A stretch of 47,752 bases of DNA from a virus, in the IMG/VR virus record IMGVR_UViG_3300008110_000556, positions 1-47,752 of that record. One strand, 5' to 3'. The notes beneath the pieces were generated by a model. That model was not told where the DNA came from. It ran no database searches and saw only the letters and a list, made by a program, of their open reading frames with translations. A program made the translations under genes and the position numbers. Shown here piece after piece: positions 1 to 47,446 of this stretch. Each line of letters opens with the position of its first letter. The stretch's first letter is position 1.

Positions 1-3000
1 TCGGCTTCACAAGCTCAAAATGCTAACACTGCTTCTTACGTACTAAATGCTGTTAGTTCCTCGTTTGCTACTACTGCTTCTTATGTATTAAACGCCGTTA
101 GTGCTTCATTTGCCTCTACTGCATCTTTTGTTAATACACTTAACCAAAGCGTATTAATAACAAATACTTTAACAGTAGGTACTTCATCATTAGGAGCTAC
201 TGAAAATACATTAGTTGTAGGACCTCCCCCAGCAGGAGGTTTAGGTGAAGGGGGACAAATATTATTACAAGCAACAGGTGGCACGTACACCTCAGCTTCA
301 ATGCTAGATAACTGGCAAGATTATACAAGATTATTACGTGGAAGCAATGCATCAAGTGATGCTGTGGTAGCTCAATGGAATATGCACTCAAAGCAAGCAG
401 CATTTCCTGCATACAACAGTGTTTCTGCATTTACCGGAACTGCAGTAGCTAACTTAGCAGTAGATTCTAATGGTAATATTCTTACTGTATCTACTTCTTC
501 TGGTGGATCTGCATTTCCATATACAGGAATTGCATCTATAAATGGTGGATTAGTAGTAACCGGTTCTATAACTTCATCGGGTGCTATTTATTCACTTGCA
601 AATGGTGCAATGTATTTTAGAGGTGGTGATGATGCAGAATTTTGGGATATAAATGTAGCAAATACAGTTGGCATTTACGGGCAACAAGATCAAAGTGTAG
701 CTTCTATAAAACTAGGATCTAGTGGAGGAACAATCTCAGGAAGAAATGGGAATATTGGTATAGGAACTATCACACCAAACTCAGCTTCATTGCATGTAAA
801 TGGAAATGTATTTGCTACATCATTTACAGGATCATTACTTGGAACAGCTTCTTTTGCTGCATCATCCTCCCAAGCTCAAAATGCTAACACAGCTAGCTAT
901 GTGCTAAATGCAGTGTCTGCTTCTTTTGCAACCTCAGCTTCACAAGCCCAAAACGCTAACACAGCTAGCTACGTACTAAACGCCGTGTCTGCTTCATTTG
1001 CTACTACTGCCTCTTATACATTTAATGCTGTTAGTGCATCTTATGCCTTCAACGCAGATTTACTAGACGGTAGAGACAGTACAGTATTTGCAACCACGGG
1101 TTCAAACCAATTTAGTGGTTCTCAAATCATAACCGGTTCTTTAACCGTAACAGGACAAATTACCGCACAAACCTTAAACGTTCAACAAGTAACCTCTAGT
1201 ATTGTATTTTCTAGTGGTTCCAATGTGTTTGGAAGCAGCTTAAGTAATACACAACAACTCACAGGTTCGGTTAGTGTAACAGGAAGTTTTGTAGTTACAA
1301 CAACAGGAACCGAATTACAAGTTACAAATACCGGTGTAAATATAGGAAACATCTCAACCGATGTTCACAACGTAACAGGTAGCTTATTAGTATCTGGCTC
1401 TACTCGCTTAATAGGTAATACTGCAATCACTGGTTCCTTAGGTGTAAGTGGTGGGATTACGGGTAGCTTGCTAGGTACCGCCTCGTATGCTGCTCAAGCA
1501 TTATCTTCCTCGTTTGCAACAACTGCTTCATATGTGTTGAATGCAGTATCTGCATCTTTTGCAACCTCGGCTTCACAAGCACAAAATGCTGATACTGCTA
1601 GCTATGTACTTAACGCCATATCTGCCTCGTTTGCAACTTCTGCTTCACAAGCTCAAAACGCTAACACAGCCAGCTATGTGCTAAACGCTGTATCTGCTTC
1701 GTTTGCAACCTCGGCTTCATACGTTGCTGTTTTTCCATACACCGGTTCTGCTATCATATCCGGCAGTTTAGATATAACCGGCTCGTTTGCTACCACACAA
1801 GACATTATAGTAAACGGGGTAGATATTGGAGAAGGTGGAGGTAGTGTAACTACAAATACTAGAATTGGTACTAGTGCACTAGCTAATAATACTACGGGAG
1901 CAGAAAATACAGCGGTAGGTAGAGCAGCATTACAATGTAATACAATAGGTTCATCTAACACAGCAGTTGGTAGAAGTGCACTATTTGCTAATACAACAGG
2001 TGTAGACAATACCGCAGTAGGTGCAAATTCACTACAATGTAATACAATAGGTATAAACAACACATCAGTTGGTAGATGTTCATTGTTTAACAATACAACC
2101 GGTAATAATAATACCGCAGTAGGTTTTTATGCACTCCGTCTTAACACAACAGGAGGAAGTAATACCGCAGTAGGTAGAAATGCACTACAAGCCAATACAA
2201 CAGGTGGTAGTAACTCTGCACTAGGTGGTGGTGCACTTGCATCCAACACAACCGGCCTTAATAACTCCGCAGTAGGATTGGGTGCACTTGGAGCTAATAC
2301 AACAGGTGTTAACAATTCAGCATTAGGTGTAAATGCACTTCGTTGTAATACAACAGGTGCTAGTAACTCTGCATTAGGTTACTATGCACTTCTCTGTAAT
2401 ACAACAGGTGGTAGTAACTCTGCATTAGGTTTAAGATCACTTTGTGCTAATACAACAGGTGTTAGCAACTCTGCAGTAGGTGTTGATGCACTTCGTAATA
2501 ATACAATCGGTAATAATAACTCCGCATTAGGTCAAAATGCACTCTTTACTAACACAACAGGTATCAACAACTCAGCAGTAGGTGTAAATGCACTTCTTTC
2601 TAATACAATAGGCGCTAGTAACTCTGCAGTGGGTGTAAATGCACTTTGTGCTAATACAACAGGTACCAATAACTCAGCAGTAGGAGTAAATGCACTTTGT
2701 GCTAATACAACAGGTGGTAGTAACTCTGCATTAGGTGTTGATGCACTCCGTAATAATACAACAGGTGCCGCAAATACTGCTGTAGGTAGATGTTCACTTG
2801 CTTCAAATACAACCGGCGCTAGTAACTCTGCAGTAGGTAATTATACACTTCGATGTAATACAACAGGTGCTGGTAACTCTGCATTGGGTCTAAATGCACT
2901 CCAACAAAATACAACAGGTGGTTGTAACTCTGCATTAGGTGCAAATGCACTTTTTGCTAACACAACAGGCGCTAGTAACTTGGCAGTAGGTTCATCTGCA

Positions 3001-7929: not shown

Positions 7930-8079
7930 ATGGAAAATAACCTAGAAATATTAAAAAATAAACTTGCATTTTTAAACGACCAACTGCATATATATACCCA
8001 ACAAGGTCAATTAGATGTAGTTGAACGTTTAATAGGAGAAATAGAAGATACAGAAAATCAAATCCATAAATTACTATGA
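7930..8079 (+). CDS. Small coiled-coil protein, 49 aa
   Basis: A short reading frame (MENNLEILKNKLAFLNDQ...) starts 4 bases after the previous stop and ends in an ATGA overlap with the next fibre gene (its ATG is at 8076). Heptad-like spacing of Leu/Ile with charged residues predicts one amphipathic helix or coiled coil. The tight coupling on both sides supports a real gene. It may help fibre folding or attachment; no family recognised. Confidence 0.65.
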   Translation: MENNLEILKNKLAFLNDQLHIYTQQGQLDVVERLIGEIEDTENQIHKLL

Positions 8080-11000
8080 AAATATTTTCACCAAATATAA
8101 CAGGCTCTTTAATAGTAACTGGTAGTATTAACACTATTACAGGTTCATTAACAGTTACACAAGGGATTACTGGTTCTTTATTTGGAACAGCTTCATTCGC
8201 AATCTCAGCTTCACACGCCCAAAATGCAGCTACTGCTTCATTTGTACTAAACGCAGTTAGTGCCTCGTTTGCTACAAATGCCTTAAGTGCCTCGTTTGCT
8301 ACTAGTGCATCTCTTGCTCAAACTGCTAATACTGCTTCTTATGTGTTAAATGCTGTATCTGCCTCGTTTGCTCCTATTTTCCCATTTACTGGATCTGCCC
8401 AAATAACAGGCAGCTTGGGAGTAACAGGTTCTATTAACAGCTCACAAGACATTATAGTAAATGGTGTAAATATCGGAGAAGGTGGAGGTAGTATAGCTAC
8501 AAATACTAGAATTGGTACTAGTGCTTTAGCTAACAATACTACAGGCAATAATAACACTGCATTAGGTAGAGATGCACTTTGCGCTAATACAACAGGGTGT
8601 TTTAACTCTGCAGTAGGAGTAAGTGCACTTTGTAATAATACAACAGGTAGATATAATTCGGCATTAGGTGTTTATGCATTGCAAGCCAATACAACCGGTA
8701 TTAGTAACTCTGCAGTAGGAGTAAGTGCACTTCGATGTAATACAACTGGTACTTGTAATTCTGCATTAGGTGTAAGTGCGCTTTTTGCTAATACAACAGG
8801 TGCTAGTAACTCTGCAATAGGAGCAAGTACACTTCGATGTAACACAACAGGCACAGCCCAAGTAGCAATAGGACATGAAGCACTTTGCTCCTCAAACTTT
8901 GGCTCCACTTCCACAAACGCTAACGTAGCAGTTGGTTATAGAGCATTAAGAGCTAATACAACCGGGATAAACAATACCGCGGTTGGAACTAGAGCACTAG
9001 AAGTTAATACAGAAGGCATTAACAACTCTGCAATAGGACGTTATACACTTCGTAGTAACACAACGGGTACTAGTAACTCTGCAGTAGGAGTAAATGCACT
9101 TTTAAATAACACAACTGGTACTTTTAATTCAGCACTAGGTGTAAATGCACTTTGTGCTAATACAACTGGCAACGCTCAAGTAGCAATAGGTTATCAAGCA
9201 CTTATTTGCTCAAACTTCGGCTCTACTTCCGCAAACGCCAACGTAGCAGTTGGTTATAGAGCACTAAGATTTAATACAATAGGAGCATTTAATACTGCAG
9301 TTGGAACCAGAGCATTAGAATTAAATACAACAGGAGTAAGTAATGTCGCTATAGGTAGATACTCTCTTAGTAATAATACTATAGGTGCTAATAACTCTGC
9401 AATAGGTGCAGGTGCACTTCGATATAATACAACAGGTGTTAGCAACTCAGCAGTAGGTGTAAACACACTTCGTAGCAATACAACAGGTACTAATAACTCG
9501 GCATTAGGTGTCTATGCGCTTTGTGCTAACACAACAGGCACAGCCCAAGTAGCAATAGGTAGAGATGCACTTTGTGCTTCAAACTTCGGCTCTACTTCCA
9601 CAAACGCTAACGTAGCAGTTGGTTACAGAGCATTAAGAGCTAATACAACCGGAATATGCAATTCTGCAGTTGGAACCAGATCACTGGAAGCTAATACAAC
9701 AGGAGGAAGTAATGTTGCATTCGGTTTATACACATTAAGAAATAATACTACTGGTAATTTTAACTCTGCGGTTGGGGTAAGGGCACTTCTTTATAATACA
9801 GCAGGTAGTTCAAATACAGCAATGGGTTTAAACGCTCTTTGTATCAACACCCTGGGTAATGATAACTCTGCATTTGGGGCAAGGTCACTTCGTGATAATA
9901 CAACTGGCACACAAAATACTGCTGTGGGAACTGATGCACTTAGAAGTAATACAATAGGTGTAGTAAATACCGCAATAGGAGTAAATGCTCTTGCAGCCAA
10001 TACAACCGGCACCCGAAATACAGCGATAGGTTTTAGTTCCCTCTGTAAAAATACAGCTGGAGCCTGCAATGTTGCATTGGGTATCTATTCACTCTATAAC
10101 AACACAACCGGAAACAATAATATAGCAATAGGTCACTATTCATTATTTTGTAACACAGTATCAGACAACACAGCAGTAGGTACCTGTGCATTAAGAAGTA
10201 ATACAACAGGAGCATGTAATACTGCAGTAGGCTTAAATGCACTTTGTGCTAATACAATAGGTATACGTAACACAGCAGTCGGATTTTGTACTTTAAGAGC
10301 TAATACTACAGGTTATAATAACACTGCATTAGGTGTATATGCACTAAGAGATAATACTACTGCTTGTGGCAATACCGCAATTGGTGATAATGCTTTATAC
10401 CGTACTACAACAGGTGGTTACAATGTTGCTATTGGAAAGGCAGCTTTATCGTTTAACTGTATAGGCACATACAATGTTGCAGTTGGTATGAATTCTATGC
10501 TTTTTACTACCGGTTGTAATAATACAGCTATTGGAGCAAGAGCTCTCCAAACAAATACTACGGGAAGAGCACAAGTAGCAATTGGATATCAAGCCCTTTG
10601 TGCCTCAAACTTCGGCTCCACTTCCGCAACTGCCAACGTAGCAGTAGGCTACAGAGCACTACGTGCCAATACAACAGGTACAAATAATACAGCATTAGGC
10701 ACAAGAGCATTAGAAGCAAATACAACAGGAGCAAACAACACCGCAGTAGGATTGTATGCGTTGAGAAGTAATACAACAGGTACACAAAATACAGCAGTAG
10801 GACAAAATTCATTAGTTTTAAATACAACAGGAGGTTGTAATACAGGATTAGGTACAAGTGCATTAGGATCCAATACAATAGGTACTTACAACGTTGCTGT
10901 TGGTAGAGGTTCATTATTTGGAAATACAACAGGAGCTTCTAATACCGCCGTAGGATTTAATACATTAAATGCTAATATAACAGGTACAAATAATACCTCA

Positions 11001-13559
11001 CTAGGATTTAGAGCATTAGAAGATAACACAGCATCAAACAACACAGCAGTTGGTTTCTGTGCATTAAGAAGTAATACTACGGGTACATTTAATACAGCAC
11101 TTGGGCATACAGCTTTAAGATATAATACAACAGGAGCTCGTAATATTGCTATAGGTCACAATTCTTCACGTTCAAATACAGTAGGTAGCAATAATGTATC
11201 TGTAGGTTATCAATCATTATTTTCTAATATATTAGGTGATAACAATATTTCAATTGGATTGTGTGCTTTATTTTCAAATACAGCATCAAACAACACAGCA
11301 GTTGGTGCAAGTGCATTAAGAGCTAATACAACAGGTACAGAAAATACCGCTGTAGGTTTAAGTGCATTAAGATGTAATACAATAGGTGATCTCAATACAG
11401 CACTTGGTTCTAGTGCTTTAGAACAAAATACAACAGGTAGAGCAAATGTAGCTGTGGGGGTAAATGCATTAGCTTGTAATACTACAGGTAAGTATAACAC
11501 AGCTCATGGTTTGGCTGCTTTAAGACTTAACACAATAGGAGGGGGCAATACCGGTATAGGATTTTATGCCTTAAGAGCCAACACCGCATCCAACAATACA
11601 GCAGTTGGATTAAATGCTTTAGTAGCGAATACAACAGGTGCATATAACGTAGCAGTTGGGGCTGGTGCATTAGCCGCCAATATCGGAGGTCAACAAAATA
11701 TTGCTATGGGTAATAGTGCTTTAGCAAGTAATACCGCAGGTGTATTTAACATATCTATAGGCACATCAGCACTTCAAACAAACAGTACAGGTAACAATAA
11801 CGTTGCACTTGGACATCAATCTTTATTTAGCAATACAGCAGGTAATAACACTGCAGTAGGAACATATGCTCTTCGTCAAAACACAACAGGCACCAACAAC
11901 TCTGCATTTGGTTTATGTGCTTTAAGAAATAATACTACAGGTGCATACAACACAGCAGTTGGTTTCTGCACATTAAATGCTAATACAACTGGTGCATCTA
12001 ATGCTGGTTTTGGAGATAGTGCCTTGTTAAGTAATACTACAGGTGTTAGAAATACGGGTTTAGGCAACAGTACCTTAAGAGGAAATTCATCGGGAAATGA
12101 TAATACAGCTGTAGGTCATAATGCTTTAAGATGTAACACAACAGGTGTTAATAACACTGCAGTAGGTTCTAATGCTTTATACTCTAACGTAACAGGCTAC
12201 TGCAATACTGCACTTGGTTTCTGTGCATTAAGAAGTAATACTACAGGAGGTTTTAATACGGCCGTTGGATATGGAGCTTTAAGAGCTAATACAATAGGTC
12301 TTAGAAACGTAGCTGTAGGTATAAATTCATTATGTTCTAACACAACAGGTAATAACAACACTGCAGTAGGAGAATTTGCTTTAAGATATAATACAATTGG
12401 AATAAATAATACCGCAATAGGTATAAAAGCTTTAAGATCAAATACAACAGCATCAAATAATACTGCACTAGGTACAAGTGCACTCTATTGTAATACAACA
12501 GGTATTAACAATACTGCAGTAGGTGTATATTCACTTTTTTCCAATACAACAGGAGCATGCAACACAGCAGTAGGTTTCTGTGCATTAAGAGCTAATACTA
12601 CTGGTACACTAAGCACCGCAATTGGTTTATGTGCTTTAGCAGCTAACACATACGCTTCTCTTAATACTGCTATTGGAGCTTATGCTTTACGTTCTAATGT
12701 TGGAACAAATTATTTAGGTTGTTGTGGTAATGTTGCGGTAGGAACTAGATCTTTATGTTCTAATACTATAGGATTTGATAATGTTGCTGTAGGAAATGAT
12801 GCATTGTGTTCTAACACAATAGGTGATCGTAATGCTGCATTAGGTATGAGAGCCTTAGGAAGCAACACAACCGGTTTTGAGAATACAGCAATAGGCACAA
12901 ATGCCCTATTCAGCAATACAACCGGTACTAGAAACACTGCATTAGGTTGTGGTGCACTTAGAATAAATTCAACAGCATGTTGCAACACTGCATTAGGTAT
13001 GAATGCCCTAGAACTAAATACAACAGGAAATTGCAACACTGCAGTTGGTTTTGGTGCACAATGTAGTTTAGCAACTGGTGTAAATAATACAATAGCAGTA
13101 GGACATACAGCGTGTACTACAGCAACAACAGGTCATACAGTTTGGGGCAACAGTGGTAACAATCAATGTAACTGTGTTTACAAGGCATGGGAATTAGCAT
13201 CTGACTGTCGAGATAAAGCAAACATTCAAACACTTCCTACTAAATTAGGACTTCAATTCATCAATAAACTACGTCCTGTATCCTTTAATTGGGACTACAG
13301 AGACACTTACGTAAGAGAATGTAAATATAGTTACGGAGAAAAAGATGGATCATTTATAAGCGAGAAAAAGTCATATGGTGTAATTGCTCAAGAACTAAAG
13401 CAAACACTAGAAGAATTAGACGTTAAATTTGATGGTTTAGGGCATGATGAAGAAAAAGATGCTTATAGATTAGGTTACGAGGAACTAATCGCTCCGATCA
13501 TCAAAGCAATACAAGAGTTAAACACTAGATTAACAACAGTAGAAGAAAAGGTTGGATAA
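8076..13559 (+). CDS. Giant repeat tail fibre with C-terminal S74 intramolecular chaperone
   Basis: 1827 residues, paralogous to the fibre ending at 5799. Order: TGSLxVTG and TASFVLNAVSASFAT repeats (about 1-110), a block with QDIIVNGVNIGEGGGS nearly identical to the first fibre, about 90 of the 17-residue NTAVG/NTTG units (about 143-1665), then a peptidase-S74 (ICA) domain. The S74 start is S1709-D1710-C-R1712-D-K1714, matching the SDxRxK autoprocessing motif, followed by FINKLRPVSFNWD, YGVIAQELK and a C-terminal helix (LNTRLTTVEEKV). In the known family the chaperone trimerises the fibre and cleaves itself before the Ser, which would leave a 1708-residue fibre. Overlaps the preceding small gene by ATGA. 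Confidence 0.92.
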   Translation: MKIFSPNITGSLIVTGSINTITGSLTVTQGITGSLFGTASFAISASHAQNAATASFVLNAVSASFATNALSASFATSASLAQTANTASYVLNAVSASFAPIFPFTGSAQITGSLGVTGSINSSQDIIVNGVNIGEGGGSIATNTRIGTSALANNTTGNNNTALGRDALCANTTGCFNSAVGVSALCNNTTGRYNSALGVYALQANTTGISNSAVGVSALRCNTTGTCNSALGVSALFANTTGASNSAIGASTLRCNTTGTAQVAIGHEALCSSNFGSTSTNANVAVGYRALRANTTGINNTAVGTRALEVNTEGINNSAIGRYTLRSNTTGTSNSAVGVNALLNNTTGTFNSALGVNALCANTTGNAQVAIGYQALICSNFGSTSANANVAVGYRALRFNTIGAFNTAVGTRALELNTTGVSNVAIGRYSLSNNTIGANNSAIGAGALRYNTTGVSNSAVGVNTLRSNTTGTNNSALGVYALCANTTGTAQVAIGRDALCASNFGSTSTNANVAVGYRALRANTTGICNSAVGTRSLEANTTGGSNVAFGLYTLRNNTTGNFNSAVGVRALLYNTAGSSNTAMGLNALCINTLGNDNSAFGARSLRDNTTGTQNTAVGTDALRSNTIGVVNTAIGVNALAANTTGTRNTAIGFSSLCKNTAGACNVALGIYSLYNNTTGNNNIAIGHYSLFCNTVSDNTAVGTCALRSNTTGACNTAVGLNALCANTIGIRNTAVGFCTLRANTTGYNNTALGVYALRDNTTACGNTAIGDNALYRTTTGGYNVAIGKAALSFNCIGTYNVAVGMNSMLFTTGCNNTAIGARALQTNTTGRAQVAIGYQALCASNFGSTSATANVAVGYRALRANTTGTNNTALGTRALEANTTGANNTAVGLYALRSNTTGTQNTAVGQNSLVLNTTGGCNTGLGTSALGSNTIGTYNVAVGRGSLFGNTTGASNTAVGFNTLNANITGTNNTSLGFRALEDNTASNNTAVGFCALRSNTTGTFNTALGHTALRYNTTGARNIAIGHNSSRSNTVGSNNVSVGYQSLFSNILGDNNISIGLCALFSNTASNNTAVGASALRANTTGTENTAVGLSALRCNTIGDLNTALGSSALEQNTTGRANVAVGVNALACNTTGKYNTAHGLAALRLNTIGGGNTGIGFYALRANTASNNTAVGLNALVANTTGAYNVAVGAGALAANIGGQQNIAMGNSALASNTAGVFNISIGTSALQTNSTGNNNVALGHQSLFSNTAGNNTAVGTYALRQNTTGTNNSAFGLCALRNNTTGAYNTAVGFCTLNANTTGASNAGFGDSALLSNTTGVRNTGLGNSTLRGNSSGNDNTAVGHNALRCNTTGVNNTAVGSNALYSNVTGYCNTALGFCALRSNTTGGFNTAVGYGALRANTIGLRNVAVGINSLCSNTTGNNNTAVGEFALRYNTIGINNTAIGIKALRSNTTASNNTALGTSALYCNTTGINNTAVGVYSLFSNTTGACNTAVGFCALRANTTGTLSTAIGLCALAANTYASLNTAIGAYALRSNVGTNYLGCCGNVAVGTRSLCSNTIGFDNVAVGNDALCSNTIGDRNAALGMRALGSNTTGFENTAIGTNALFSNTTGTRNTALGCGALRINSTACCNTALGMNALELNTTGNCNTAVGFGAQCSLATGVNNTIAVGHTACTTATTGHTVWGNSGNNQCNCVYKAWELASDCRDKANIQTLPTKLGLQFINKLRPVSFNWDYRDTYVRECKYSYGEKDGSFISEKKSYGVIAQELKQTLEELDVKFDGLGHDEEKDAYRLGYEELIAPIIKAIQELNTRLTTVEEKVG
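8502..13074 (+). repeat. 51-bp tandem repeat array (17-aa NTAVG/NTTG units)
   Basis: Same unit as the array at 1855-4932; the span corresponds to about 90 units. Variant AQVAIGxxALxxSNFGSTS..NVAVGYRALR blocks occur near 8850, 9170, 9540 and 10565. Some units are shortened (ASNNTAVG lacking the TTG turn). Confidence 0.9.
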
Positions 13560-19267: not shown

Positions 19268-20017
19268 ATGGCAGAAACTCTATTATCTCCCGGTGTATTA
19301 GCAAGAGAGAACGATCAATCTTTTATACAAGGTCAGCCACTTGAAAGAGGAGCAGCTATAATTGGACCCACTACAAAAGGACCAGTTGAAACCCCAACAC
19401 TAGTAGGTTCATTTAGTGAATTTACTAATATTTTTGGTGGAGCTGTTCAAAGTGGATCTAACGTATATTCTTACCTTACTTCAATTGCAGCTAACAACTA
19501 CTTCCAAAATGGTGGTACTTCTTTACTAGTAACTAGAGTAGTCACTGGTTCTTTCACCTCCGCAACTAGCTCATTGATGCCAACAGGATCAGGTGGCCCA
19601 ACTACTGGTTTATCTCCATTTGTACTTGAAACAATTTCTGAAGGTATTATTATGAATAGTACTAGTACTGAAATTTTAGGTTCTTTACCTTCAGGTTCAA
19701 GCGATAACATTAGATGGGAAATTCCAACTGTTAACACTGCTTCTGGGACATTTGCATTGTTGATTAGAAGAGGAGATGACAATAACGTACAAAAAGTAGT
19801 ACTAGAATCTTACAACAACTTATCACTAGATCCATACTCTTCTAACTATATTTCTAAAGTAATAGGTGATGTGAATTTCAATTTAGTTAATGATGGTAAT
19901 GATTTTTTCATTCAACAAACTGGTTCTTATTCTAACATTTCTAAATATGTAAGAGTAAGACAAGTAAACTTTAATACTCCAAAATACTTTGACAATAACG
20001 GTATTGCTAAAGGATAG
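19268..20017 (+). CDS. Contractile tail sheath, N-terminal part (frame break)
   Basis: 249 residues ending at TAG 20015-20017. LLSPGVLARENDQSF..RGAAIIGPTTKGPVETPTLV is the typical sheath N-terminus of T4 gp18-like proteins, and the beta-rich insertion that follows also fits. The reading continues in the +1 frame (19989-20879), which holds the conserved sheath C-terminus, so this is not a complete protein by itself. Combined length would be about 537 residues, in the range for phage sheaths. Removing one base from the AAAGG run at 20009-20013 rejoins the frames as IAKDSQGL; +1 slippage at GGA-TAG-C is the recoding alternative. Confidence 0.88.
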   Translation: MAETLLSPGVLARENDQSFIQGQPLERGAAIIGPTTKGPVETPTLVGSFSEFTNIFGGAVQSGSNVYSYLTSIAANNYFQNGGTSLLVTRVVTGSFTSATSSLMPTGSGGPTTGLSPFVLETISEGIIMNSTSTEILGSLPSGSSDNIRWEIPTVNTASGTFALLIRRGDDNNVQKVVLESYNNLSLDPYSSNYISKVIGDVNFNLVNDGNDFFIQQTGSYSNISKYVRVRQVNFNTPKYFDNNGIAKG

Positions 20018-20879
20018 CCAAGGACTAACAGGTGGTAACTATACAAATGCAATCGCATTGTTATCAAATGAAGATGAATACAAATACAATGTAATATCTA
20101 TTCCTGGTCTATTAGCTTCTACTCACGCTACTCAAACCACAGCCTTAGTAAATAATACAATTAAAAGAGGTGATTCTATTGCAATTATAGACTTAGTAGG
20201 ATATAACTCACAAATAAATGCAGTAATAAACCAAGCATCTGGATTTGATTCTAGCTATGCTGCTGCATACTGGCCTTGGTTGCAAACTATCGACCCTAAT
20301 ACAGGTGAGGCAGTTTGGGTACCAGCTTCAACAATGATCCCAGGTGTATATGCATTTACTGATGCTTCAAGTGATCCATGGTTTGCCCCCGCAGGTATTA
20401 CTCGTGGCGCATTAGGCCAAGTAATTAGAGCTGAAAGAAAATTAACCGCTGGAAATAGAGATGATATATATGAAGCAAATGTTAACCCAATTGCTACATT
20501 CCCTGGAAGTGGAGTAACAGTATTTGGCCAGAAAACACTTCAGAAACGTGCTTCTGCACTTGATAGAGTAAACGTGAGAAGATTGTTGATTGCTCTTAAG
20601 GGCTTCATCGGCCAAGTAGCAGAAGGATTGGTATTTGAACAAAATACAGCCGCTACTAGAAATAACTTCTTAAGCCAAGTAAATCCATACTTAGAATCTG
20701 TACAACAAAGACAAGGTTTATATGCTTTCAAAGTAGTAATGGATGAAACTAACAACACACCTGATGTAGTAGATAGAAACGAGCTAGTAGGTCAAATCTT
20801 CCTACAACCAACTCGTACTGCTGAATTCATTGTGTTGGATTTCAACGTGTTGCCAACTGGTGCAGTTTTCCCTGCATAA
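19989..20879 (+). CDS. Contractile tail sheath, C-terminal part (frame break)
   Basis: Open frame overlapping the end of the N-terminal part. True coding probably enters around 20010-20020, since the only start here is a TTG inside the other frame. It encodes SQGLTGGNYTNAIALL, PGVYAFTDASSDPWFAPAGITRG, VTVFGQKTLQKRASALDRVNVRRLL and a C-terminal TAEFIVLDFNVLPTG, all hallmarks of the phage tail sheath C-terminal domains that form the interlocking sheath mesh. It has no promoter or ribosome-binding signal of its own, supporting a single gene broken by one base or read by frameshifting. Confidence 0.9.
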   Translation: MTITVLLKDSQGLTGGNYTNAIALLSNEDEYKYNVISIPGLLASTHATQTTALVNNTIKRGDSIAIIDLVGYNSQINAVINQASGFDSSYAAAYWPWLQTIDPNTGEAVWVPASTMIPGVYAFTDASSDPWFAPAGITRGALGQVIRAERKLTAGNRDDIYEANVNPIATFPGSGVTVFGQKTLQKRASALDRVNVRRLLIALKGFIGQVAEGLVFEQNTAATRNNFLSQVNPYLESVQQRQGLYAFKVVMDETNNTPDVVDRNELVGQIFLQPTRTAEFIVLDFNVLPTGAVFPA

Positions 20880-40428: not shown

Positions 40429-40455
40429 CCATATTTTTTTAAATTACATTTTTTG

Positions 40456-40482
40456 GAGGAGCACTTAGTGCTCCTCTTTTTT
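40456..40482 (+). terminator. Intrinsic terminator after nrdA
   Basis: GAGGAGCACT / AGTGCTCCTC inverted repeat (8-10 bp stem, small loop) followed by CTTTTTT. Closes the replication and nucleotide operon. Confidence 0.9.
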
Positions 40483-40553: not shown

Positions 40554-41027
40554 ATGAGATTATTATATTTGTTTTTTGCTTTATTTTTAAGCATGAACCT
40601 CTATGGTCAAGAAACCATACGAATCGAAGGAGTAGAAAATAAAATTATACTAGGTCCGTTAGCCAACAACCGAGATTTAGCTTTTGGAGTTAAAAGTATA
40701 CTAGAAGAAGTAATCCAAGATAAAGGATTTAATCTAGATGAAACTTCAACTCGAGGTATTAAAGTAGAATTGTTGTACTTTGATGTGTTAAAAACTAATG
40801 TACAACTAGGTGGATTTGGTAAAAACACTAACACCACAGTTATTGCCGCTAAAGCATATTTAATTGAAAATGGTAAAGTAATTAAAGAAGTAGAAGCTAA
40901 AGGACAAGCTAAAGACATATCTACTGCAACTTTAATTATAGATAAAGGAGGCAAGTTTTCTCAAGCCGGGGTTTCAACTTCACTTAAAAAGGTTTGTGAA
41001 CAACTTATTGATAACTTACTTCTATGA
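40554..41027 (+). CDS. Exported protein, CsgG/YajG-superfamily-like fold
   Basis: 157 residues with a signal peptide MRLLYLFFALFLSMNLYGQ (predicted cut after G or Q, no lipobox). The mature part has alternating helices and strands: ANNRDLAFGVKSILEEVI, IKVELLYFDVL, TVIAAKAYLIENGKVIKEVEAKG and a last helix STSLKKVCEQLIDNLL. The C-terminal half parallels the exported CsgG-like protein at 44527 (a repeat of strand-turn-strand then TSxKKAxE helix), so both may belong to the same superfamily. Periplasmic or outer-membrane associated; exact function unknown. Confidence 0.6.
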   Translation: MRLLYLFFALFLSMNLYGQETIRIEGVENKIILGPLANNRDLAFGVKSILEEVIQDKGFNLDETSTRGIKVELLYFDVLKTNVQLGGFGKNTNTTVIAAKAYLIENGKVIKEVEAKGQAKDISTATLIIDKGGKFSQAGVSTSLKKVCEQLIDNLLL

Positions 41028-42592
41028 AAAAACTATTAATTCTTTTACTGCTATTACCCACTCTTTCTTTTGGTCAAATTATAGTTAACCAACAAGTAGT
41101 GGAAGCTCCTCCTTACAATGTAGGGGATGTTATTACTATTAGATACACTCTCCAAAACCTGACAGGACAACCTGATTTTAGATATTTTTGGTTAAGATTA
41201 CAATATTCTAATAAACACCTGCAATTAGTACCTAACTCTACAGTATTTGCTAATGCTGCTTCAAGACAAACCTATACCCACCAATGGGTAGGTTTTAGAT
41301 TTAATCCTAATCCCAATATTGGTGTAGGAGAGTTAGACAGACAATTTACTCAGGGTGGGTGGCAGTATGTAGTGGATCAAAATTGGAATGTTGTTCAATT
41401 AAATTTTCAAGCTACAACAAATATACTTAATGGAGAATGGGTTAGTCAAAAATATATTGTAAAAGACCAATTAGAATTTAACAATGTCCACAAATTGGAT
41501 ATGGCGGATGCTAGAAATTCAGCAAACCAACGTGTGACTCCTATTGGATCCCAAGTATTATGGTTAAGTTTAAATAATGTAATTGGTGCATCTACATCTA
41601 CTAAATTTAGAGTAGCGTTTCCTGCAGGATATGATATTACAAAACATAATGTTCAAGTAGTAAATGTAAATGCTGACAACACTCCTAATTTTAACTCAAT
41701 AGTAACTTCTGTTCCTTTAGATGCTTCTGGAGAAGCACTATTAACCACTTTACAAACCGGAAAGAATTATTTTGTTTTAATTACCCCTGCTACACAACAA
41801 TCCTTTATGAATGATATTGTAACTGTAACAGATGCCTATAAAGCATTTTTACAAATATCAGATAAAGGTTTAAATATAGACCAAAACTATTTTACTACAC
41901 CTTTAGAATTTAAAGTAGGTAATGTGACATTAGGTGATAATGATTTTGACTTAAGTGACTCATACAATATATTTGCTCATGTAATGGGTATAAATGTATC
42001 TCAAACTTCCACCATACCTACTTCTACTACTTCAAATATTAGATTCTATTCAGGTAAAATTGATACATTTAATCAAGGGATATTTAACGGGCTTATAAAC
42101 ATAGTAAACCCAACTCACACATTTGATTTGGGATATGCATGGGCAGGTGATTTAGATTTTTCCCATTCCACACCTAAAACTGTTACTAATATAGCTAACA
42201 GATCTAACAGAATAGAAACAACTAACAAACAAGCAAATACTACAGTTACAACTAAACTTGTAAGTGGTAAAGTAGTAGTAGAAATAAAGCTTGAAGAAAC
42301 TAATCTAGCTGGAGCTCAATACAAAATTAGATATGATGTTAACAAATTGGAACTAGAAGAAGTAGTATTTGATGCTGGGAGAGATATAACCAATTTCACA
42401 ACTCCTAGAGATAATGCTGTAGTATTTGGCTCAATTGATAATACCGGTACTTCTAAAGTAAAACCTGGTATGCCCTATAAACTTATATTTAAGACAAAAA
42501 CATCAATATCTAATACAACAGGTTTAGTATTTATTGAATTTGCAGAAGCGGTTGCTCAAAATGGAGATAAAATCATTCTAAACGTACAATAA
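41024..42592 (+). CDS. Exported protein with dockerin-like and cohesin-like segments
   Basis: 522 residues, coupled by ATGA to the previous gene. Signal peptide MKKLLILLLLLPTLSFGQ. The N-terminal (about 20-150) looks like a beta-sandwich: VGDVITIRYTLQNLTG, FWLRLQYSNKHLQLV. Two F-hand-like segments, VTVTDAYKAFLQIS (about 265) and FDLSDSYNIFAHVMGI (about 310), match dockerin repeats. The C-terminal about 110 residues (KVVVEIKLEET..AQYKIRYDVNKLELEEVVF; VFIEFAEAVAQNGDKI) have the cohesin-like pattern. Such modules are common in secreted Bacteroidota proteins, so recent acquisition from a host is possible. Likely envelope or extracellular assembly; function unknown. Confidence 0.65.
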   Translation: MKKLLILLLLLPTLSFGQIIVNQQVVEAPPYNVGDVITIRYTLQNLTGQPDFRYFWLRLQYSNKHLQLVPNSTVFANAASRQTYTHQWVGFRFNPNPNIGVGELDRQFTQGGWQYVVDQNWNVVQLNFQATTNILNGEWVSQKYIVKDQLEFNNVHKLDMADARNSANQRVTPIGSQVLWLSLNNVIGASTSTKFRVAFPAGYDITKHNVQVVNVNADNTPNFNSIVTSVPLDASGEALLTTLQTGKNYFVLITPATQQSFMNDIVTVTDAYKAFLQISDKGLNIDQNYFTTPLEFKVGNVTLGDNDFDLSDSYNIFAHVMGINVSQTSTIPTSTTSNIRFYSGKIDTFNQGIFNGLINIVNPTHTFDLGYAWAGDLDFSHSTPKTVTNIANRSNRIETTNKQANTTVTTKLVSGKVVVEIKLEETNLAGAQYKIRYDVNKLELEEVVFDAGRDITNFTTPRDNAVVFGSIDNTGTSKVKPGMPYKLIFKTKTSISNTTGLVFIEFAEAVAQNGDKIILNVQ

Positions 42593-42594
42593 AA

Positions 42595-42963
42595 ATGAAA
42601 TCATTAAAATATTTAAGTATTGTCCCAATTCTATTACTAGGTGGATGTTTTCAAGAAGACATATACGAACCTGAATTACCTACTAATAATTTAAAAATAA
42701 AAGAGCAAGTAGGTATAAAACTAGAATCAGTATTTGCAACTGACGAGGTAGCAATGAATGTAAAAACAGAAAATTCTGGTATTTATACCGTGAAGATACA
42801 TCATATAAGCGGCAGAATTGTATCCAAAGAAGAAATAAAAGTACAAGCTGGGGATAATATACTAAAGTTGTATACAGGGGCACTACCTAAAGAACCTTAT
42901 ACTATTGCTTTATATAATTCTCAGAATGTTAGGTTAGCAGAAACTATTGTAAATTTATATTAA
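42595..42963 (+). CDS. Lipoprotein with T9SS-sorting-like C-terminal domain
   Basis: 122 residues. Signal peptide MKSLKYLSIVPILLLGGC with lipobox LGGC (lipidation at C18). The mature protein has a short linker then NSGIYTVKIHHISGRIVSKE, GDNILKLYTGALPKEPYTIALYN and a final RLAETIVNLY, which resembles the beta-sandwich C-terminal sorting domain of type IX secretion (GxYxVxIxDxxGrxV..). Could sit in the outer membrane facing the periplasm or surface. It is 2 bases after the previous gene. Function unknown. Confidence 0.65.
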   Translation: MKSLKYLSIVPILLLGGCFQEDIYEPELPTNNLKIKEQVGIKLESVFATDEVAMNVKTENSGIYTVKIHHISGRIVSKEEIKVQAGDNILKLYTGALPKEPYTIALYNSQNVRLAETIVNLY

Positions 42964-42973
42964 CTAAACAGCT

Positions 42974-43300
42974 ATGAGCGAAGAACAAGAAGTTGGGTTT
43001 TTTGGCCAATTAAAAAATCAAATTATTACCGGAGCAGGAGCTATTTTAGCTACTGTTGGAACCATTTTTATAGATGAAATTAAGTCTATAGTTGGTATTG
43101 AAGATGAGACTGAGCAAGTGCAAGGCACTCAGCAGAATAACCAACAACAGCAAAATGTAGTAATCAACATTCCAGAACAAAAACCTGCAGAAACCAAAAC
43201 TGTAGTTATTAAGGAAACAGCAGCTGCACCTGTAGAGAAAAAAGCTCCACCTAAAAAGACTGAAACTGAAAAACGTAAAGAAGAAGGGTTAGACTGGTAA
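42974..43300 (+). CDS. Membrane-anchored Gln-rich protein, unrecognised
   Basis: 108 residues. One hydrophobic helix (about 17-36, IITGAGAILATVGTIFI) precedes an acidic segment, a poly-Gln stretch (about 54-61), a Pro/Lys/Glu-rich region (KKAPPKKTETEKRKEE) and a C-terminal GLDW. It looks like a single-pass inner-membrane protein with a long disordered tail, the type seen in spanin or lysis accessory proteins, but there is no lipobox or family match. Its last base is the first base of the next gene. Confidence 0.6.
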   Translation: MSEEQEVGFFGQLKNQIITGAGAILATVGTIFIDEIKSIVGIEDETEQVQGTQQNNQQQQNVVINIPEQKPAETKTVVIKETAAAPVEKKAPPKKTETEKRKEEGLDW

Positions 43301-43620
43301 TGGAAAATAACACACAACAAACAGGGTTTAAGCAGTTGCTAAACTCTATGATGACTAGAAGATGGTTAATGACATTAATCGTCTTGATTACTTTTATGTT
43401 TATAACATTAGGTATAATGATTTCTATTCATGTTGATACTGCCGTAGGACAGGAGTGGAAAGAGTTACTATTATTATTACTAGGTGCATTTATCGGTTCT
43501 TATGGTAAAATCATTGACTACTGGTTCTCTGATACAGATAAAGATAAAATGTTAGTCCAGAAAATGGACGAAGAAGATGGAGTTTCTTTATCAAATACAA
43601 ATTCAACCGAAGAAAAATGA
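43300..43620 (+). CDS. Small two-TM protein, holin-like candidate
   Basis: 106 residues with two predicted transmembrane helices (about 23-43, WLMTLIVLITFMFITLGIMI; about 54-70, LLLLLLGAFIGSYG) and a charged, hydrophilic C-terminus (SDTDKDKMLVQKMDEEDG). The topology would suit a class II holin, but the endolysin lies 3 kb downstream with its own holin-like gene, so the role is open. Starts on the last base of the preceding stop and overlaps the next gene by 4 bases. Confidence 0.55.
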   Translation: MENNTQQTGFKQLLNSMMTRRWLMTLIVLITFMFITLGIMISIHVDTAVGQEWKELLLLLLGAFIGSYGKIIDYWFSDTDKDKMLVQKMDEEDGVSLSNTNSTEEK

Positions 43621-43715
43621 CAAACCGCGAAACAAAAGACAAAAACAGAAAAGCAATGGCTAAAGCCACTATTAAGGCTCAACAAAAGTCTGGAATGTAT
43701 AAAAAGAAAATGTAA
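43617..43715 (+). CDS. Small basic protein, 32 aa
   Basis: Reads MTNRETKDKNRKAMAKATIK and ends SGMYKKKM, about one-third Lys/Arg. Starts by ATGA overlap with the previous gene and ends TAATG into the nuclease gene, so the coupling pattern supports translation. Possible nucleic-acid or protein binding; no family recognised. Confidence 0.6.
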   Translation: MTNRETKDKNRKAMAKATIKAQQKSGMYKKKM

Positions 43716-44326
43716 TGAGACTTACTCTACTTTTTTTCATTTTAGCAGTACAATCTCTCTTGGCGCAAACCAAGAGGGATTCTGTTTTAGTAGAGACACC
43801 TGTTTTTACAGTAATGTATTCTGAAATCTTAGAGCAACCTCTTTGGATCAAATACAGGTCTACAAACCGTCCTACAAATGTAAATAGAGGTCACATGAAT
43901 TTTTATAAGGAAAAGAATATCCTTACCTCTGATGATGCAGATTATAAGGCAAATGTATATGATAAAGGACATGGAGCACCAGCTGCTACATTTTCAGATA
44001 ATGAGGTAAATTTAAAGCAAACATTTTCGTACTTAAACTCTATAATGCAAGATCAATACCTTAATAGAGGTAGTTGGAGATTGTTAGAAGAACAAGAACG
44101 AAAGTGGGACGACGAAGAACCGCTAACTGTAATAATCAAAACTTATTTTGATAAACCTGCAAAAAGAGTAGCAACAGGGGCAGCAATCCCCTCTTATATA
44201 GAAAAACATATTCATTTTGAAAAATCCAAAAAATGGAGATGTTACGTATTTTTAAATCAAAAACCTGAATACGAATTTGAACGAGCAGGTATGTTATGCA
44301 AACCCGAAAAACACAAACTTAAATAA
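43715..44326 (+). CDS. Exported DNA/RNA non-specific endonuclease (Serratia nuclease-like)
   Basis: 203 residues with signal peptide MRLTLLFFILAVQSLLAQ. YDKGH86GAPAA is the DRGHxAP active site (His86 general base; the Arg is Lys here). N108, N117 and E125 in LNSIMQDQYLNRGSWRLLE have the same mutual spacing (9 and 8 residues) as N110, N119 and E127 of Serratia nuclease. Expected to degrade DNA or RNA in the periplasm or outside the cell. It lacks any phage-DNA-protecting context, but export keeps it away from phage genomes. TAATG coupled to the preceding small gene. Confidence 0.82.
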   Translation: MRLTLLFFILAVQSLLAQTKRDSVLVETPVFTVMYSEILEQPLWIKYRSTNRPTNVNRGHMNFYKEKNILTSDDADYKANVYDKGHGAPAATFSDNEVNLKQTFSYLNSIMQDQYLNRGSWRLLEEQERKWDDEEPLTVIIKTYFDKPAKRVATGAAIPSYIEKHIHFEKSKKWRCYVFLNQKPEYEFERAGMLCKPEKHKLK

Positions 44327-44329
44327 TCT

Positions 44330-44533
44330 ATGAAAAATCTATTCAGTTCCTTAATGTTAATTATTGTTATATTCATTTCCCCAGCAATCGGTGTATATTT
44401 TGCTCTTAACAGTGCTAATCCCGAAATTATATTTCTATCCTTTTTTACATTAAGTATAGTTTTATGGTTTAGCTTGCGTAAGGTTTTTGGTTGGAAAATT
44501 GATGAAAAAACAAGAAAAAATCACTCATGGTAA
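44330..44533 (+). CDS. Small two-TM protein, 67 aa
   Basis: Two hydrophobic helices (about 8-26, LMLIIVIFISPAIGVYFAL; about 32-48, IIFLSFFTLSIVLWFSL) with a basic C-terminal tail (RKVFGWKIDEKTRKNHSW). No family recognised. It starts 3 bases after the nuclease and overlaps the CsgG-like gene by 7 bases, placing it inside the exported cluster; a membrane partner or holin-type protein is possible. Confidence 0.6.
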   Translation: MKNLFSSLMLIIVIFISPAIGVYFALNSANPEIIFLSFFTLSIVLWFSLRKVFGWKIDEKTRKNHSW

Positions 44534-45246
44534 AATATCTTCTAAGTATCCCGTTCTTTTTCCTATCCACTACTTTGTTTGCTCAAGTAATAGGAAAAAC
44601 TTCCACTGAAAGCTACCAAGCTGAATTTGAGAAATCTGCTTCCATATATTCTATTCCAGAATATAACGGTAAGCCTGTACCTGTTGCTTTACTAACAATT
44701 GGTATAAGTGATGAAGTACTAGCTCAATATCCAGAATTAGGTGACTATAGAGTAGGACTAGGTCTAGCAAACATTGTAGTAGCATTTATGGATGAGACCT
44801 TTAGATTTGAATTTGTGGAAACAAAGGATGAAATAAAGGATCGTATGATTGCCCAAATGAAAGCCTCAGATAAAGGCATTTCTGCAAACAAAATAGAGGT
44901 AAAAGGTAACATTGTACTAGCCAAGTATTTAGGCTATGTTGAAGTATACGATTTTTCTATTTCAGAAGATGAAACTATAAACCTAAAAGATGGTGTAAAA
45001 AATACACTAGTAACTAGATTAGGTTTACAGCTAAAACTAGTAGATGCAGAAACTGGATTATACATGACTGGTTCAGGATTAGGTACTGCAACTACAACCC
45101 GTGAATTAACTTTATTAAGTGATCAAAACTTAGAGGAAGTAGCATTTAATCAATCATCTATTGGTACTTCTACCAAAAAAGCTCTAGAAACTGCAGTAGC
45201 AAAAGTTGTAAAAAGAATGATGCAAAAGGGTGTGTTTGATCACTAA
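44527..45246 (+). CDS. CsgG-like outer-membrane secretion channel component
   Basis: 239 residues with signal peptide MVKYLLSIPFFFLSTTLFAQ; no lipobox, whereas E. coli CsgG is a lipoprotein. The mature part follows the CsgG fold pattern: KPVPVALLTIGISDEVLAQYP, LANIVVAFMDETFRFEFVE, DRMIAQMKAS, KIEVKGNIVLAKYLGYVEVYDFSI (the VxGxIxxY-like strand), RLGLQLKLVDAETGLYMTGSGLG (LRxVNxxTGEV) and the C-terminal helix STKKALETAVAKVVKRM. CsgG homologues form nonameric curli secretion pores in the outer membrane and have been reported in some marine T4-like phages. Expected to work with neighbouring exported proteins. Confidence 0.75.
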   Translation: MVKYLLSIPFFFLSTTLFAQVIGKTSTESYQAEFEKSASIYSIPEYNGKPVPVALLTIGISDEVLAQYPELGDYRVGLGLANIVVAFMDETFRFEFVETKDEIKDRMIAQMKASDKGISANKIEVKGNIVLAKYLGYVEVYDFSISEDETINLKDGVKNTLVTRLGLQLKLVDAETGLYMTGSGLGTATTTRELTLLSDQNLEEVAFNQSSIGTSTKKALETAVAKVVKRMMQKGVFDH

Positions 45247-45250
45247 CCTA

Positions 45251-46501
45251 ATGAAATATTTTATTTTTATATTATTACTATGGGGGAATGTGGCTTTGGC
45301 CCAATCCCCCATCATTACCCAAACATATACCGATAGGTGTACGGGACAAACATTTGTGTTTTCTGTTCCATCAAATGGGCAAACAATAGTAATATTTTAT
45401 AATAAATCACGTACATTTACCGCAAATGACTTTACAAGTGGTGCATTACGTACCTGGCTAGAAGAAACATATGCTTGGTGGAGAAATTTAAGCCCTTGTT
45501 CTACTAATCAAGCTACTGCAACTGCAGCACAACAAACCGCTCAACAAGCTGCCTCAACTGCTACTTCAGTAGCTACTAATATTCCCACTCCACCCCCACC
45601 CCCACCAAGTGGTGGATCGTCTTCTAGCAGTTCTTCAAGCTCAAGTAGCTCTTCTAGTTCTTCCTCTCAAGAAAAAAGTGGGGGAGAGACAGAAAAAAGT
45701 GGAGGTGGATCTGAAGAAAAATCTGGTGGATCAGAAGAAAGTAGTAGCTCTGAAGAAAGCAGTAGTGAATCTGAATCTTCAGATAGTGAAGAATCCTCAG
45801 AAAGCTCTTCAGAAGAAGAGGAGGAAAAAAAAGAAGAAAAGAAAAAAACAACAACACCACCTATAGTAGTTGCAAACGTAGCATCCATACAAGGTCTAGA
45901 TGGTAAATGGGCTACTGCTCTATCCTTTGGTATGAGCAAATCTTCTTTGCTGGGAGACAAATCCTATGGGATAAACAGTATGGTATGGTCTAACATGAAA
46001 CAGTTTCTAGTAGCAGGAAACTATTCAAAAACCCATATGGTAAAGGGTGAAATAGACATGATTAGCTCTACTGCTATAAGTGTAGCTAAAATGTATTCAA
46101 CCTATTTAGTTTCAATAGGCCATGGCAAAGTATTCCCAGGTAGAGATGGATCTGTATTTGGATTCAACTTTGCAAGTAATGTAATGTCTGTAGAGTTAGC
46201 TCCTCTACAACGTGACTTATCTGGGTCTTTTAATACTGTATTTTTTTATACTAAATCCTTTAACTTTACTCGATTATCTTTAGCACCATTAGCTGCTTTA
46301 GCTTCAAACCTAGCTACATATAGTTTTACTACTAAAACAATAGATATGCCTCATTCACATATATTACTAGCAGGTAATAATTTTAACTACACTATAACAC
46401 AAAGATTTGTAGCTAACTTAGGTATAATGGCTACTTCATCTTTATCTGGAGAATTTCCAACAACATATGCTGTAACTGTTGGATCTAGATTTCAATTTTG
46501 A
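45251..46501 (+). CDS. Exported Ser/Glu-rich protein with outer-membrane beta-barrel-like C-terminus
   Basis: 416 residues from ATG 45251, which begins the signal peptide MKYFIFILLLWGNVALAQ; an earlier in-frame ATG (45230) overlaps the CsgG-like gene. Order: small N-domain with two Cys (RCTG and SPCST), Ala/Thr linker, Pro run, a poly-Ser/Glu/Gly/Lys low-complexity region (about 118-200, many different Ser codons, so not a DNA microsatellite), then about 200 residues of alternating strands (WATALSFGMSKSSLLGD; QRFVANLGIMATSSL) ending VTVGSRFQF. The terminal Phe is a typical outer-membrane barrel signal. Likely surface exposed; family not recognised. Confidence 0.65.
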   Translation: MKYFIFILLLWGNVALAQSPIITQTYTDRCTGQTFVFSVPSNGQTIVIFYNKSRTFTANDFTSGALRTWLEETYAWWRNLSPCSTNQATATAAQQTAQQAASTATSVATNIPTPPPPPPSGGSSSSSSSSSSSSSSSSSQEKSGGETEKSGGGSEEKSGGSEESSSSEESSSESESSDSEESSESSSEEEEEKKEEKKKTTTPPIVVANVASIQGLDGKWATALSFGMSKSSLLGDKSYGINSMVWSNMKQFLVAGNYSKTHMVKGEIDMISSTAISVAKMYSTYLVSIGHGKVFPGRDGSVFGFNFASNVMSVELAPLQRDLSGSFNTVFFYTKSFNFTRLSLAPLAALASNLATYSFTTKTIDMPHSHILLAGNNFNYTITQRFVANLGIMATSSLSGEFPTTYAVTVGSRFQF

Positions 46502-46546: not shown

Positions 46547-46835
46547 ATGTTTAACTATTTAAAAAATAAATGGATGGCTTTCAAGGACATTTTTAAATTT
46601 CAAGGACATTTTTAAAGACAACAACTCTTACAACGAAAAAAACATCGTAGGATTTGGATCATTTGCGGTAATGGCAGTATTTGCGGCCGCAGACATTGTA
46701 ACTGGTATATTAGGTATGCCGTTAGAAATTACCGATATTATTTTCAACTCTTTTGTGATCATTACATTGGGTTCTTTTGGTATCGATGGGGTAACTAAAA
46801 TCTTTAGTAAAGACAAAAAAGAAGAAGAATTATGA
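46547..46835 (+). pseudogene. Holin-like gene interrupted by a 19-bp tandem duplication
   Basis: From ATG 46547 the frame reads MFNYLKNKWMAFKDIFKFQGHF then stops at 46613. Removing one 19-bp copy (46579-46597 or 46598-46616) joins MAFKDIFK to DNNSYNEKNIVGFGSFAV and gives an 89-residue protein with two membrane helices (GFGSFAVMAVFAAADIVTGIL; DIIFNSFVIITLGSFGI) and a charged tail ending KDKKEEEL. Its TGA overlaps the endolysin ATG (ATGA), the expected holin-endolysin arrangement. As written, only an internal ATG (46671) could give the second half. Real inactivation, phase variation or assembly error cannot be told apart here. Confidence 0.72.
46579..46616 (+). repeat. Perfect 19-bp tandem duplication
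   Basis: TTTCAAGGACATTTTTAAA occurs twice back to back (46579-46597 and 46598-46616) and shifts the holin-like frame by one. Confidence 0.95.
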
Positions 46836-47446
46836 GCTTAAAATCTTTACAAGCTAAAATTGGAGTTGCTGCAGATGGTGCATTTGGACCTGGTACTTTA
46901 AAAGCAGCTATGGCCTATTACAAGATGACACCTGAAAGAGCTGCTCACTTTTTTGCCCAAACTGCTCACGAAAGTGGAAACTTTAAAGCATTTTCTGAGA
47001 ATTTGAATTACGGTGCTGCTGGTTTAACAGGGATATTTAAAAAATATTTCCCAACCACAGAAAAAGCATTACTTTATGAGCGCAAGCCTGAAAAAATTGC
47101 TAACTTAGTTTATGGAGGCAGAATGGGTAATGGCGATGAGGCTTCAGGTGATGGATTTAAGTTTAGAGGTAGAGGTGCTCTACAATTAACTGGTAAAGAT
47201 AATTACAAAGTATTCTCTGAATACTTGAAAAAACCAGAAATCATGACTAATCCTGATCTAGTAGCAACTGAGTATGCTTTCGAATCTGCAATTTTCTTCT
47301 TTGACAGAAACAAGCTATGGGACATCTGCGATAAAGGTGTAAACAAAGATACAATCTTAGCTCTCACCAAAAGAATCAATGGTGGAACTCATGGATTGGC
47401 TGATAGAGAAGAAAAAACACTTAAGTATTACGGTTTTCTAAAATAA
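46832..47446 (+). CDS. GH19 chitinase-like endolysin
   Basis: 204 residues, no signal peptide. MTPERAAHFFAQTAHESGNFKAF carries the GH19 catalytic HE pair (AHESGNF), followed by LNYGAAGLTGIFKKYFPT, NGDEASGDGFKFRGRGALQLTGKDNY (second conserved region GRGxxQLTGxxNY) and ALTKRINGG, the standard phage GH19 lysozyme-like layout. It hydrolyses peptidoglycan glycan strands at lysis and needs a holin to cross the inner membrane. Coupled by ATGA to the broken holin-like frame upstream. Confidence 0.92.
   Translation: MSLKSLQAKIGVAADGAFGPGTLKAAMAYYKMTPERAAHFFAQTAHESGNFKAFSENLNYGAAGLTGIFKKYFPTTEKALLYERKPEKIANLVYGGRMGNGDEASGDGFKFRGRGALQLTGKDNYKVFSEYLKKPEIMTNPDLVATEYAFESAIFFFDRNKLWDICDKGVNKDTILALTKRINGGTHGLADREEKTLKYYGFLK

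Follow-up and report, generated by a model that had tools for sequence, protein, structure and literature searches.

A conserved phage gene module around a probable CsgG-superfamily pore suggests rebuilding of the surface of infected Bacteroidota cells

A cluster of exported and membrane proteins

The DNA examined is the 47.7-kb virus record IMGVR_UViG_3300008110_000556, and its full length of 47,752 nt is referred to here as the window. Matches to PHROGs families for tail sheath, tail tube, baseplate hub, replicative helicase and single-strand DNA-binding protein place the virus among contractile-tailed phages; a DNA-level search of the window against the named phage collection returned no match. 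A pair of very large paralogs of ~1830 aa, virion or tail-spike proteins, is encoded at 301-5799 and 8076-13559, the former with an HNH-endonuclease-like match close to its C-terminus. At 19268-20879 the tail sheath is encoded by a pair of overlapping frames, 19268-20017 and 19989-20879. Each matches a different part of a single sheath family, and the gene is possibly split or frame-shifted.

Positions 40554-46501 contain nine non-overlapping genes, p1 to p9, all on the plus strand (Table 1), where an earlier note made from the sequence alone had counted ten in succession. A Sec signal or lipobox is present in six of them (p1, p2, p3, p6, p8 and p9), and the other three (p4, p5 and p7) have membrane segments. 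This clustering, which the note had described, is specific to the interval: an N-terminal hydrophobicity scan of the 44 window genes flagged none outside it. Exported genes make up six of nine inside the interval and none of 35 outside, corresponding to a hypergeometric P of ~1e-5 on the basis of this simple scan.

The upstream boundary of the cluster is formed, as had been proposed, by a terminator; it is of the intrinsic type, follows nrdA and is moved or replaced in some relatives. The late-type promoter postulated next to it was not substantiated, as promoter matches in the window (34 found, 32.8 expected) are about as frequent as chance predicts. The sequence block ahead of p1 is conserved among the closest relatives, and a pattern built from it does not recur in the window. 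Downstream, the predicted lysis genes are indeed found, with a GH19-type endolysin gene preceded by a holin-like frame. The latter, at about 46547-46835, contains a 19-bp tandem duplication relative to three close relatives (L005, L006 and L007) that shifts the frame near its start. Intact copies of this holin-like gene exist, and the duplication in the window may be real or an assembly error.

Table 1. Features of the cluster and its flanks in the window
Feature	Position	Strand	Basis or remarks
Intrinsic terminator	40455..40477	+	10-bp stem, 6 G-C pairs, T run; after nrdA
p1, exported YajG/Lipoprotein_16-like protein	40554..41027	+	PF03923, 26.1 bits (cut-off 25)
p2, exported cohesin-type adhesin	41024..42592	+	PF00963, 27.1 bits (cut-off 24.1)
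p3, lipoprotein with lipobox LGGC and Bacteroidota surface-export signal	42595..42963	+	Lipobox motif analysis
p4, one membrane segment, flexible tail, invariant C-terminal Trp	42974..43300	+	Tail comparison; topology inferred from charges
p5, two-segment membrane protein, optional	43300..43620	+	29/79 loci
p6, exported DNA/RNA non-specific endonuclease	43715..44326	+	PF01223, E=1.1e-16
p7, small membrane protein, closest relatives only	44330..44533	+	1/79 non-redundant loci
p8, CsgG-superfamily protein (likely), probable outer-membrane ring channel	44527..45246	+	Foldseek, PF03783 in a relative, hhalign
p9, N-terminal two-cysteine domain, Ser/Glu-rich linker, predicted 12-stranded barrel	45251..46501	+	AlphaFold2 model
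p10, holin-like frame (flank), frame-shifted in the window	46547..46835	+	Comparison with relatives
p11, GH19-type endolysin (flank)	46832..47446	+	PF00182, 27.2 bits

Conservation of the module

Among viral contigs, p8 has 123 relatives by a single-protein query and at least 556 by an alignment query. For the analysis of co-occurrence, 162 loci were thinned by p8 similarity to 79 non-redundant phage loci. In these, p8 is accompanied by p9 in all 79, by p4 in 77, by p2 in 76 and by p1 in 70, invariably on the same strand, and in 76 of the loci p4 is found upstream of p8 and p9 downstream of it. The other genes are far more sporadic, with p5 in 29 loci, p6 in 16 and p7 in a single one; all these counts are minimum values because contigs are often cut. 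The core holds together while the lysis genes and nrdA change side or are unseen in the fetched flanks. The conserved module, present in many aquatic Bacteroidota phages, is p1, p2, p4, p8 and p9, joined by p3 in the lineage of the window, and the p6 nuclease, p5 and p7 are optional passengers. The ten-gene envelope set suggested earlier is thereby reduced to this core.

A scan for p8 across one genome per bacterial or archaeal species yielded, at this sensitivity, only two contigs with a relative, both from MAGs, both phage-like and both carrying the same module. Within the named phage collection, p8 has relatives only in the Flavobacterium phages vB_FspM_immuto, in which the genes for SSB, RecA, exonuclease, helicase, NrdF and NrdA likewise lie upstream of the cluster. 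In immuto, gp017 corresponds to p8, gp016 to p4 and gp015 to the cohesin protein. Searching these phages with tblastn matched p8 and p6 and returned no match for p1 and p2. In one close relative of the window (L004:2837-7432), p2 and p3 are each present as two copies in tandem, with a weak match to C-type lectin in the second p2.

Predicted properties of the module proteins

The CsgG family profile PF03783 does not match p8 of the window; one p8 relative (L081) scores 18.4 bits (E 2.8e-5), under the curated cut-off of 20.8. The AlphaFold2 model of p8 is of low confidence (mean pLDDT 50.6). When this model was compared with the PDB using Foldseek, 4uv2 was matched with E=1.1e-4, and CsgG accounted for nearly all of the best 24 matches; the monomer model, at that low confidence, has long strands at 134-152, 156-173 and 179-194. 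A single E. coli CsgG sequence proved too weak for a profile match, and we built a CsgG profile from E. coli CsgG and 18 sequences from Bacteroidota genomes. With signal peptides removed, hhalign aligned the p8 and CsgG profiles over 193 columns with P=8e-4; none of 60 column shuffles gave a P below 0.042, and unrelated exported families of the cluster gave 0.13 or higher. Only signal-trimmed alignments were used, because shared signal peptides inflate the scores: untrimmed, unrelated exported proteins reach P ~1e-3 to 1e-5 against p8 and p1. PDB sequences yielded nothing beyond weak, irrelevant matches to the profiles of p8 and p1. Taken together, three weak but agreeing lines, namely the sub-cut-off PF03783 match in a relative, the PDB matches of the model and the signal-trimmed profile alignment, make p8 a likely member of the CsgG superfamily.

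The protein shares with the bacterial CsgG channel its fold, a collinear alignment and a conserved segment where CsgG has its constriction loop, and differs from it in scoring below the Pfam cut-off and in usually having no lipobox (a lipobox-like cysteine is found in 33 of 163 p8 sequences). The constriction loop has a role in CsgG. The corresponding p8 segment, YPEL.D.RVGLG..NI, is among its three most conserved; that it matches the loop residue by residue is our reading of the alignment. We regard p8 as a probable outer-membrane ring channel. The same signal-trimmed procedure gave P=3.1e-6 for p1 against p8, where shuffling reached no lower than 0.036, and the assignment of p1 as a distant, shorter relative of p8 is well supported at the level of sequence. 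We also considered p1 as a CsgE, which a comparison with E. coli CsgE did not support (P=0.71).

The C-terminal domain of p2 is a cohesin domain, scoring over the PF00963 cut-off, and the p2 profile retrieves cohesins from PDB sequences. Relatives of p2 contain C-type lectin, PA14, laminin-G, GEVED and type IX sorting domains as well as weak dockerin matches. In a sister lineage, a type IX sorting domain (Por_Secre_tail), scoring over the cut-off, forms the C-terminus of the cohesin protein. Such a domain is present above cut-off in nine of 18 phage records, once in each, and in the traced cases it sits in the cohesin gene adjoining p4 and p8. In the window no Por_Secre_tail match exceeds the cut-off of 27, the only candidate being p3 with 14.4-18.7 bits; the lineage of the window has no fused type IX tail and carries the lipoprotein p3 instead. 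This gene lies immediately 3' of p2 in 35 of 36 non-redundant loci. Among its 48 distinct lipobox motifs, position +3 is K, Q or R in 30 and position +4 is D or E in 39, and p3 of the window, which reads CFQED, has both a lipobox and an acidic export signal after the cysteine; the surface-lipoprotein export signal of Bacteroidota has been defined previously (PMC5080379). Given a likeness to the type IX tail that stays below the cut-off, p3 is possibly its split-off counterpart. Both layouts, a fused type IX tail or a following p3, point to the cell surface.

The tail of p4 is flexible, rich in Asn and Gln and ~60 residues long, and ends in Trp in all 81 distinct sequences. Because Lys residues precede the membrane segment and acidic residues come after it, the sequence suggests a cytoplasmic N-terminus and a periplasmic tail, which could be long enough to span the periplasm. 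For p9, AlphaFold2 predicts a 12-stranded outer-membrane barrel at the C-terminus (pLDDT ~90 across the strands); N-terminal to it are a two-cysteine domain, a helix and a linker modeled with low confidence. The best PDB matches of this model are barrels, with Pseudomonas FapF on top at 7% identity. The two share an N-terminal soluble part with a helix followed by a 12-stranded barrel, and differ in that there is no sequence similarity and that p9 has a variable Ser/Glu-rich linker. Judged from the model, this likeness is one of fold class, and we do not claim homology to FapF; nor did a comparison with CsgF support p9 as a CsgF. Outer-membrane barrels are encoded by other phages too.

Proposed role and relation to known systems

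We propose that p1-p2-(p3)-p4-p8-p9 encodes an envelope apparatus of the infected Bacteroidota cell, with a tethered pore and displayed adhesins, and assign this reading a probability of about one half. In this apparatus, p8, perhaps together with p1, would form a ring channel in the outer membrane, while p4 would sit in the inner membrane with its tail spanning the periplasm. The terminal Trp of p4 may dock on p8 or p1 and thereby hold or gate the pore, a suggestion drawn only from gene adjacency and from the invariance of this residue. The adhesin p2 would be displayed on the surface, through the type IX system of the host in phages whose gene has a sorting tail and with the aid of the surface lipoprotein p3 in the lineage of the window. 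As a second barrel, p9 could display or export its own N-terminal domain, or assist p2. An infected cell so altered would bear a pore together with a coat of adhesins. The likeliest benefit would be that its surface is masked from competing phages, or that glycans and neighboring cells are bound. If p2 is exported by the host type IX system, p8 is not needed for p2, which counts against this explanation. A more specific version is rather doubtful: a trans-envelope machine peculiar to the phage, in which the CsgG-superfamily ring of p8 with p1 is combined with the p4 tether, a Trp gate and the p9 barrel, and a cohesin or lectin coat is delivered by type IX or surface-lipoprotein pathways of the host.

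The earlier note had likewise seen a phage-encoded envelope apparatus here, and had named two findings that would speak against it, failure to recover a CsgG-like fold and failure of the genes to co-occur in related phages. The fold was recovered for p8, from the low-confidence model, and the genes do co-occur. An outer-membrane pore and surface proteins remain the best reading, while the nuclease p6 falls away as a component, given its presence in 16 of 79 loci.

A role in lysis is an unlikely alternative with several points in its favor. Acting as a spanin substitute, p8, p9 and p4 would breach the outer membrane or depolarize the envelope late in infection, and the adhesins would be unrelated neighbors. 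An endolysin gene is near in 30 of 79 loci and a holin-like gene in 45, p4 is laid out like an inner-membrane spanin, and the CsgGF of phage Melnitz has been suggested to act in lysis timing (PMC9004378). However, the position of the lysis genes varies relative to the core, and p2, which has surface-anchoring signals, is found in 76 of 79 loci and is conserved like p4, has no place in lysis.

It is improbable that the pore secretes an amyloid or fiber subunit that aggregates cells, as in the curli-like systems of pelagiphages. The CsgG superfamily, the flexible Asn/Gln-rich tail of p4 and the fact that the closest PDB barrel of p9 is an amyloid transporter would fit such a system, but neither curlin repeats (CsgA/B) nor CsgF were found in any of the 18 phage records of this set, a comparison with E. 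coli CsgE did not support a likeness for p1, p9 is not CsgF-like, and the likeness to FapF extends only to the 12-stranded barrel. Uptake appears more improbable still. The channel would then admit larger nutrients to the infected cell and the adhesins would retain polysaccharide at its surface, in line with the suggestion made for pelagiphage CsgG (PMC7029224) and with the lectin and laminin-G domains of relatives; yet the module has no transporter or binding-protein gene, and passive uptake needs no tether with an invariant Trp.

Published descriptions of pelagiphages include curli clusters that comprise CsgG, CsgF and curlin, and CsgGF has been described in phage Melnitz, with proposed roles in lysis, uptake, superinfection and sibling capture (PMC7029224, PMC9599517, PMC9004378). 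The present module resembles these type VIII clusters in combining a CsgG-related pore with co-conserved neighbors in a phage genome. Their partners are CsgF, curlin repeats, FecR, a kinase and a cyclase, whereas the module here, in Bacteroidota phages, has the p1 relative, the candidate tether p4, the p9 barrel and the cohesin adhesin; CsgE, CsgF and CsgA partners were not found in it. With neither curlin repeats nor CsgF in the 18 records, the module may use a CsgG-like pore and is not a curli system by membership. We regard it as a further variant, with different partners, of the curli-pore clusters that pelagiphages carry. Phage proteins with type IX tails have been reported as cargo in Cryophage (PMC7468147). 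The C-terminal type IX sorting domain is common to both cases; here it belongs to a single cohesin protein within a conserved pore module, and the lineage of the window is without the fused tail. A search of the literature on CsgG or cohesin in Flavobacterium phages, subscription journals and preprints aside, turned up no account of the module.

Phage CsgG-type pores have been a puzzle since their discovery in pelagiphages, and the same kind of pore now appears in phages of another host phylum, in several hundred environmental contigs, with other partners and with the amyloid genes absent. Flavobacterium phage immuto, cultured with its host, strain LMO8, carries the module too, and the function of the module can be tested there by gene removal. 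Our analysis suggests that infection involves a rebuilding of the outer cell surface by the virus. Its genes bear signals by which the host's own pathways target proteins to the surface, and surface remodeling may be common in infections by Bacteroidota phages.
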